Assembly: GCF_946479755.1 (NCBI RefSeq)
Contig: NZ_CAMLHC010000013.1
Location: 62,001-126,000, forward strand
Direction: 5' to 3'
DNA length: 64,000 bases
Source: an uncultured Chitinophaga sp.
Lineage (GTDB): Bacteria; Bacteroidota; Bacteroidia; Chitinophagales; Chitinophagaceae
A program made the position numbers and the translations under genes. Below, one piece after another: positions 20,762-21,871 of this stretch. How positions within the stretch are numbered: position 1 is the stretch's first letter; each line of letters starts with the position of its first letter. The notes under the pieces were generated by a model, which saw only the letters and a list, made by a program, of their open reading frames with translations, ran no database searches and had not been told where the DNA came from.

Positions 20762-21857
20762 TCAATTATTGTCCTCTTCCTTCTGCATCATCAGGTAAGC
20801 CTTGATAAAACCGTTCAGCTCACCGTCCATTACAGGTCCCACGTTACCCACTTCAAAGTCGGTGCGGTGGTCTTTGATCATTTTGTAAGGATGGAACACA
20901 TAAGACCGTATCTGGGAACCCCATTCGATTTTACGCTTATTGGCATTGGCGGCGTTTTTCAGCTCTTCGCGCTTCCTGAGTTCCTCTTCGTACAGGCGTG
21001 ATTTCAGCATGGTGAGCGCCTTTTCGCGGTTCTCTCCCTGTGTACGTGCCTGCTGGCATTCGATGATGATGCCGGAAGGGACGTGTTTCAGGCGCACGGC
21101 TGTTTCCACCTTGTTCACGTTCTGTCCGCCTTTACCGCCCGACCGGTAGAATTCCCATTCCAGGTCGGCAGGGTTGACGGCGATCTCGATCGTGTCGTTC
21201 ACTAACGGGTATACATACACGGAAGCGAAAGAGGTATGCCTGCGGGCGTTTGAGTCGAAGGGCGAAATACGTACCAGCCGGTGTACACCGCTTTCCGCTT
21301 TCAGATGTCCGTAGGCAAAATCGCCGTCGAACTCCAGGGTGGCGGATTTGATGCCAGCGCCATCGCCGTACTGCGTGTCAATTTCCGATACTTTCCATCC
21401 CTGCTTTTCGCCATACATGCGGTACATGCGCAGCAGCATTTCAGCCCAGTCCTGGCTTTCGGTGCCGCCGGCGCCCGAGTTGATGGTTAATACGGCCGGC
21501 ATTTCGTCTTCCGGCTGGTTCAGGGTGGATTTGAATTCAAGATCTTCCAAAGCGGTCAACGCAGTGCTGTAAGCCTGCTCCACCTCTTCTTCCGTAGCCT
21601 CTCCTTCTTTAAAGAAATCATTGAGCACGCTGCTGTCTTCAATGGCGGTATGCACATTGTCGTACAGGTCTACCCAATATTTGTTTACCTTAATTTCCTT
21701 CAGGATAGAAGTCGCTCTGGCATTATCATCCCAGAATCCGGGGGCCAGGCTCAGTTGTTTGTCGTTTTCGATTTTAGCTATGCGGTCAGGGACGTTAAAG
21801 AAAACCTCCCAGGACATAAAGACGGTCCCTCATAGCTTTAAGTTGCTCTGCTGTCAT
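20762..21857 (-). CDS. prfB: Peptide chain release factor 2, expressed through a +1 programmed frameshift
   Basis: The main frame (from about 21794 down) lacks a proper N-terminus. A 20-codon frame starting at the ATG at 21857 ([20 protein letters not shown]) ends in TAA at 21795-21797; slipping +1 at CTT joins it to [13 protein letters not shown] and gives an RF2 of 364 residues. RF2 frees finished proteins at UGA and UAA codons. Seen: the stop-codon reading tripeptide in [14 protein letters not shown], and the catalytic GGQ in [15 protein letters not shown]. The slip site has a Shine-Dalgarno-like GGGAGG four bases upstream of CTT, as in other bacteria. A -7 box (21864-21871) stands six bases before the ATG, so the message has almost no leader. 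Confidence 0.93.
21794..21810 (-). promoter_or_regulatory. prfB +1 frameshift site with UAA in place of UGA
   Basis: On the minus strand the sequence reads GGGAGG TTTT CTT TAA C: Shine-Dalgarno-like stimulator, four-base spacer, slippery CTT, stop, then C. The classic site is CTT TGA C. Zero frame stops at TAA; +1 frame continues as the RF2 body. Confidence 0.9.
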
Positions 21858-21863
21858 AGCGGG

Positions 21864-21871
21864 CAAATGTA
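21864..21871 (-). promoter_or_regulatory. -7 box of the prfB promoter
   Basis: TACATTTG (complement) matches TAnnTTTG exactly; no good -33 box is seen at 17-20 bases. Its edge lies six bases before the ATG at 21857. Confidence 0.45.

Follow-up and report, generated by a model that had tools for sequence, protein, structure and literature searches.

How is release factor 2 (RF2) made from a prfB gene whose start frame ends in UAA, a stop codon that RF1 reads as well? The question arises on the minus strand of a 64,000-nucleotide stretch of DNA from an uncultured Chitinophaga sp. (the window), where a preliminary description had placed an RF2 +1 frameshift site with UAA instead of UGA. RF2 frameshifting is among the best-studied bacterial recoding events. 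We think it likely that the locus carries an RF2 autoregulatory +1 frameshift cassette in which a UAA stop and a 4-nt spacer, both typical of the genus, are joined by a stimulatory hairpin common to many other bacteria.

From 21857 to 21794 the minus strand reads ATG ACA GCA ... GTC CTG GGA GGT TTT CTT TAA C (Table 1). RF2 is split as had been described, with a 20-codon start frame running from its ATG to TAA and the main frame following in +1; the start-frame ATG is kept in 39/39 Chitinophaga loci. Of the features required of such a cassette, the sequence shows an RF2 frame in +1, CTT followed by T, an RF2-readable stop other than TAG, a Shine-Dalgarno-like element and a C after the stop, which follows TAA in 36/36 TAA sites of the Chitinophagales set. 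Two usual but not required features differ: TAA stands in place of the RF2-specific TGA, and the gap between GGGAGG and CTT is 4 nt rather than 3. By analogy with the E. coli mechanism, the +1 slip would take place at CTT_T.

The RF2 of the window contains the SPF and GGQ motifs, and its counterpart of E. coli residue 246 is Ser, an active type. All 345 query residues align at 99% to Chitinophaga eiseniae (L001), and about 5.8 kb of flanking DNA is 93% identical to the prfB locus of that species. TIGR00020 scored above cut-off in the genomes of nine of nine relatives, a result for those genomes and not for the window protein. The 16S rRNA tail gave no match to the Rfam model in two genomes and none to a pattern in eight. 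Rfam on the window itself returned two plus-strand matches (E 0.3 and 0.48), far below gathering scores, which we took as chance.

Table 1. Features of the prfB cassette in the window (positions in the window; roles of the hairpin, promoter box and slip are predicted).
Feature	Position	Strand	Remarks
Putative Bacteroidota-type -7 promoter box TACATTTG	21864..21871	-	6 nt before ATG
prfB start frame (ORF0)	21795..21857	-	ATG 21857, 20 codons ending CTT, then TAA
Hairpin 5' arm GGGAC	21825..21829	-	-29 to -25 from C of CTT
Hairpin loop CGTCTTTAT	21816..21824	-	its Leu codon has six forms in the genus
Hairpin 3' arm GTCCT	21811..21815	-	-15 to -11; foot adjoins the Shine-Dalgarno-like element
Upstream ATG in the RF2 frame	21815..21817	-	possible but unconserved bypass start; 20/37 TAA sites
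Internal Shine-Dalgarno-like GGGAGG	21805..21810	-	from sequence and relatives
Spacer TTTT, 4 nt (canonical 3)	21801..21804	-	from sequence and relatives
CTT slip codon (21800-21798) plus following T	21797..21800	-	CTT in 39/39 genus loci
Zero-frame stop TAA, readable by RF1 and RF2	21795..21797	-	
C following the stop	21794	-	from sequence
RF2 coding frame after the presumed +1 shift (UUU AAC GUC ...)	20762..21799	-	stop at 20762

The alignment of related prfB genes, named earlier as a check, shows TAA recurring at the same place: among the best 80 relatives, 36 have CTTTAA, 24 have CTTTGA and 20 have neither. The TAA of the window is therefore unlikely to be a sequencing error. The 20 relatives lacking the site are Taibaiella and other Chitinophagales (e.g. 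L032, L034, L036, L039, L040, L046). A tree of the 60 site-bearing relatives, computed on the coding part 3' of the frameshift site, has a Chitinophaga prfB clade of 40 rows, including one divergent Chitinophagaceae MAG (L047), with support of 100/100; 36 rows have TAA and four have TGA. The branch of C. costaii, drawn first in the clade, has TAA, and the four TGA rows are nested inside at two or three places, with some forks unresolved. Given this placement of C. costaii and of the TGA rows, TAA is most simply read as gained once and lost a few times.

The statement in the preliminary description that nearly all known sites have TGA holds, but the TAA variant was already in print. Passages of a 2025 survey of 8,164 genomes give TAA at 1.4% and UGA at 98.6% of prfB frameshift sites (PMC12421855), and the motif was given as YTT_TRA_C in 2013 (PMC3711429). 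The published CTTTAA sites have the same stop as the window; there, TAA is called not broadly fixed in particular clades, whereas here it occupies 36/40 of one clade. The Chitinophaga clade is a counterexample to that statement, and this near-fixation, together with that in the second clade described below, rather than the variant itself, is what goes beyond the published account.

TAA also appears elsewhere in the phylum. We collected 110 prfB loci (30 loci and 80 regions) from 146 genomes with a match and dropped two loci without alignment. Script calls in the remaining 108 Bacteroidota loci were 16 TAA, 81 TGA and 11 none; in two of the last (L150, L209) a TGA motif is plain to see, and both were moved to the frameshift set. 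In a second clade all seven sampled members have TAAC (L178, L181, L184, L187, L191, L192, L196) with a 3-nt spacer, and nine further TAA rows belong to a mixed clade, where TAAG, TAAA or TAAC occurs beside TGAC, in a tree with few columns and modest support. Most of these nine (L124, L128, L135, L137, L140, L141, L143, L146, L151) conform to CGAGGTTATCTTTAAG; their Shine-Dalgarno-like element is weak, and in eight the stop is followed by G or A. The Clostridia record Monoglobus (L243) has TAAC by the looser rule only, not by the stricter one.

Counting the window, the spacer is 4 nt at 40 and 3 nt at 37 of 77 sites; 3 nt, the nearly universal distance in published sites, is also the one given for +1 shifting in passages of a 2016 review (PMC5009743). 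Four nucleotides occur in 39 of the 40 Chitinophaga clade rows (35 with TAA, four with TGA), L047 pairs TAA with 3 nt, the sole such case in the Chitinophagales set, and the remaining sites of that set have 3 nt. The joint occurrence of TAA and the longer spacer in 35/40 rows would suit selection for UAA, in which, with RF1 also reading this codon, the loop would weigh RF2 against total UAA-terminating capacity while spacer and hairpin tune the shift. UAA is moreover the commonest stop nearby: of the 48 crude ORFs of the window 34 end in it, as do 61% of 175 ORFs in TAA-site loci. We nevertheless consider such selection unlikely. Since both traits sit on one clade, their association may reflect one event; the TGA rows of the clade retain the 4-nt spacer, and in the second clade TAAC goes with 3 nt at all seven sites. 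By crude ORF counts in the fetched loci, stop usage does not clearly differ between TAA-site loci and relatives with a TGA site and 3-nt spacer (TGA share 18% of 175 and 22% of 89 ORFs), and we therefore found no driver of TAA.

Neutral drift, with RF2 reading nearly all UAA in these cells and the difference between G and A meaningless, is a serious candidate to which we give slightly less than an even chance. A single transition separates the two states, TGA rows are nested in the TAA clade, and the RF2 of the window is of the presumably active Ser type. UAA may also be read mostly by RF2, as passages of PMC12421855 argue. Against drift stand the 36/40 rows with TAA in a deep clade and the dominance of UGA in published sites (PMC12421855), which suggest that the stop letter matters somewhere. 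The TGA rows within the TAA clade form a natural experiment on the retention of UGA in nearly all other bacteria.

The shift would be unnecessary if RF2 were made from the in-frame ATG at 21817, from which the open reading frame list shows the RF2 frame open to its stop. We judge this very unlikely. Of the 37 TAA sites, window included, 20 do have the ATG and two have TTG in the same stretch, but 15 with the same cassette have no ATG, GTG or TTG there, and in the window the codon sits in the loop and 3' arm of the hairpin.

The start frame had also been placed close to the transcription start, on account of a -7 box (TAnnTTTG). The box lies where it was described and is conserved, which supports this placement on sequence evidence only. 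In 67/75 frameshift-bearing loci of the Chitinophagales set the pattern TAnnTT[TC]G stops 4-8 nt short of the ATG, with 0.004 expected from upstream DNA, and a -7 box ends 4-9 nt before the ATG in 25/33 loci of the set that have no frameshift. The prfB mRNA is predicted to be leaderless or nearly so throughout the set. Because the box is conserved with and without the frameshift, this prediction is not tied to the cassette.

Beyond what had been described, an inverted repeat lies directly 5' of GGGAGG. Its five stem pairs hold in 40/40 rows of the Chitinophaga clade (39 loci and L047), where the only pair changes are C-G to U-G (three) and G-C to G-U (two), so that every arm change keeps pairing. 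The stem codons are nearly invariant at synonymous sites (AGG 39/39, CTG 39/39, GTC 37/39, GAC 36/39). The hairpin of the window is itself weak, at about -4 kcal/mol with a terminal G-U and a 9-nt loop. It is missing from the minimum-energy fold of the full 64 nt, whose energy is equalled or bettered by 180/200 shuffles. Once the stretch covered by a ribosome at CUU is omitted, the hairpin does form, with pair probabilities of 0.65-0.82. This pattern fits a hairpin re-forming behind the ribosome, but warns of its weakness here.

The hairpin was first noticed in Chitinophagales relatives and then tested on sequences fetched afterwards. Folding energy of a 27-nt upstream window gave only a modest signal against synonymous recoding (mean z -1.21, -0.45 and -0.65 in three frameshift groups, +0.36 without frameshift), and a foot-specific score was adopted after it. 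Loops of 3-10 nt were scored, the foot was measured from CTT, and de-duplication (more than six differences in 45 nt) kept 107 of 193 frameshift sites. The stem score peaks with the foot at -11. Its mean over feet -12 to -10 is 7.82 (n=107), against 3.24 (sd 0.42) when 5' and 3' parts are exchanged between sequences and 3.81 (sd 0.39) when the sequence is recoded synonymously with the gene's own codon usage; 0/500 swaps and 0/200 recodings reach the observed value. With feet scanned from -20 to -1 against recoding, z is 6.9, 11.2, 12.2 and 3.5 at -13 to -10 and at most 2.5 at every other foot. Stricter de-duplication leaves 70 sites with z of 7.8 and 6.1 (swap and recoding).

The excess is associated with the frameshift. 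The 31 de-duplicated loci without it show no stem excess (78/500 swaps and 56/200 recodings reach the observed mean; z 1.0 and 0.6), and three of the 31 attain a score of 9. Among the frameshift sites, z is 4.1 and 6.4 for the 16 of the Chitinophagales set, 7.9 and 7.1 for the 77 of the Bacteroidota sample, and 2.7 and 2.0 for the 14 from outside the phylum. An early-branching part of Bacteroidota (45 sites) has no clear stem excess (z 1.6 and 1.0); the split between it and the Bacteroidia-like part was made after the stems had been seen and largely follows the tree, and the pooled test of 107 sites is independent of it.

Covariation was scored over 35 rows of the Chitinophagales set, with counts that the relatedness of rows inflates: cells with changes on both sides number 25, where shuffles average 6.7 (0/500), and the covariation score reaches 0.350, where shuffles give 0.129 (0/500), with every slid register lower. 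Three of five measures stand at 0/500; the weaker ones are both-sides-changed pairs (74/500) and pair types (28/500). Position and association with the frameshift, like anatomy, conservation and covariation, are observed in the data. The stem might arise as a side effect of protein coding or of base composition, given that its arms are coding and that the whole fold of the window is unremarkable. We find this barely credible, as synonymous recoding loses the stem, the excess is confined to feet near -11, and the two arms change together.

The arms themselves vary widely. Bacteroidota have GGGAC/GTCCT, GTCCCG/CGGGAT, GATCC/GGATT, GAGCGTG/CACGCTC, AGGGCC/GGCCCT, AGAGAT/ATCTCT and CAGTTCG/CGAACTG; Alphaproteobacteria have AGCAGACC/GGTCTGCT, AGCAGGC/GCCTGCT and AGCAGTC/GACTGCT; Mitsuaria has AGCGCGT/ACGCGCT; and prfB of E. 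coli K-12 has GGAACG/CGTTCT with its foot at -11, as in the window cassette. This variety bears on a role of the repeat in transcription, as an RNA polymerase pause hairpin near the shift site or as an operator, instead of on the ribosome. Hairpin-dependent transcription pauses have a hairpin at a comparable distance upstream, and the foot some 11 nt 5' of CTT resembles that geometry. A transcriptional role still seems improbable to us, as the hairpin keeps a fixed place relative to the Shine-Dalgarno-like element despite unrelated arms and loops anywhere in the scored range of 3-10 nt, a variety that a DNA-binding protein would hardly tolerate, and as no hairpin excess is seen where the frameshift is missing.

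Outside the phylum the signal is smaller. The foot scan peaks at -13, -12 and -11 (z 2.9, 3.4 and 2.2), and five of the 14 sites reach a score of 9: E. coli, Proteus (a 4-bp stem with its foot at -12), Mitsuaria, Tistrella and Sinorhizobium. Among four Bacilli, one forms a 4-bp A-T stem and three form none; nor is there a stem at the tested feet in Acinetobacter, Aeromonas or Legionella. The share at -11 (0.29) is not above the highest single downstream position (0.286), and pair counts from five distinct alphaproteobacterial rows, too few to stand alone, are reached in 36/500 shuffles. The mean stem score at foot -3 is 7.0, against 5.0 and 5.3 at -11 and -12; we attribute it to base pairs between the G-rich Shine-Dalgarno element and pyrimidines upstream, and its z is 0.8 against recoding. 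Seven later records stood outside the null tests: three have no cassette, and the four with one (two Rhizobiaceae, Methylobacterium and Enterobacter) all have a stem with its foot at -11. The predicted hairpin is common to many, not all, of the bacteria examined.

Besides sharing the stem, the cassette of the window resembles the E. coli-type RF2 frameshift (AGGGGGTATCTTTGAC) in CTT_T, the Shine-Dalgarno-like element, an RF2-readable stop, the C, a short start frame and RF2 in +1. It departs from that type in UAA for UGA, the 4-nt spacer and the predicted near-leaderless start.

We infer that the slip occurs and that the hairpin stimulates it, and likewise what the loop senses. The passing ribosome would melt the hairpin, which would form again immediately beyond the mRNA exit at the time when GGGAGG is paired to 16S rRNA. 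A helix forming behind the ribosome could pull the mRNA 5'-ward, or could hold the Shine-Dalgarno helix in place; either would favour re-pairing of tRNA-Leu to UUU. Release factors would compete with the slip, so that RF2 output would fall as UAA-reading capacity rises. RF1 reads UAA, from which it follows, as the preliminary description held, that the feedback should be weaker or should sense total release factor. Minimal E. coli reporters with only the Shine-Dalgarno element, CUU and UGA frameshift well, and the hairpin may therefore be dispensable in E. coli.

Two described systems act in a similar way without belonging to the same family. Artificial upstream hairpins at CUUUGA gave about 60% of the Shine-Dalgarno +1 stimulation in a 70S system, only without RF2, according to passages of a 2018 study (PMC6321510); they likewise re-form at the mRNA exit, but with a 12-bp stem that replaces the Shine-Dalgarno element. 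The 5' stem-loop of T4 gene 60 is held in passages of PMC5009743 to be a motor at the mRNA exit; its exit-side action is similar, but it serves bypass over a coding gap.

The hairpin is probably an unrecorded structural element of the cassette. Passages of surveys and a review give the RF2 cassette by sequence elements alone, as Shine-Dalgarno-like element, spacing, slip codon, stop and C (PMC12421855, PMC5009743); sequence logos would not reveal a structural part in which changes compensate each other across phyla. No mention of a prfB hairpin was found in the RF2-recoding literature as represented by passages of PMC12421855, PMC8710568, PMC5009743, PMC6321510, PMC3711429, PMC10885494, PMC5373646, PMC3639245 and PMC13245932, a sample that leaves preprints and most subscription journals outside its scope, and an earlier description is possible. 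The prfB of Flavobacterium johnsoniae, described in 2021 (PMC8710568), is of the same class, with AGGAGG, CTTTGAC and an occluded anti-Shine-Dalgarno. Because of that occlusion, Bacteroidia have been proposed to need something more, and passages of the paper name other cis elements or trans factors that would promote the pause (PMC8710568). No hairpin mention was found in those passages. The printed primer prZM53, adjacent to the site (PMC8710568), matches L218, whose arms AGCGC/GCGTT can pair, and a natural prfB hairpin is a candidate for the proposed cis element.

We hold as an even bet the wider proposal that an unnoticed hairpin, refolding during translation with its foot some 11 nt upstream of the slip codon and beside the Shine-Dalgarno helix, pushes the +1 shift in Bacteroidia, Rhizobiales and another alphaproteobacterium, Enterobacteriaceae and at least one betaproteobacterium, and that its partners in Chitinophaga are UAA and a lengthened spacer, RF2 synthesis answering RF1 plus RF2.

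RF2-like genes occur on viral contigs too, with 1 and 14 loci found. Of six inspected, L255 alone has a clear cassette, with CTTTGAC; the IMG/VR contigs L257, L259, L260 and L261 (88-204 kb) carry RF2-like genes with no clear cassette where one would be expected.
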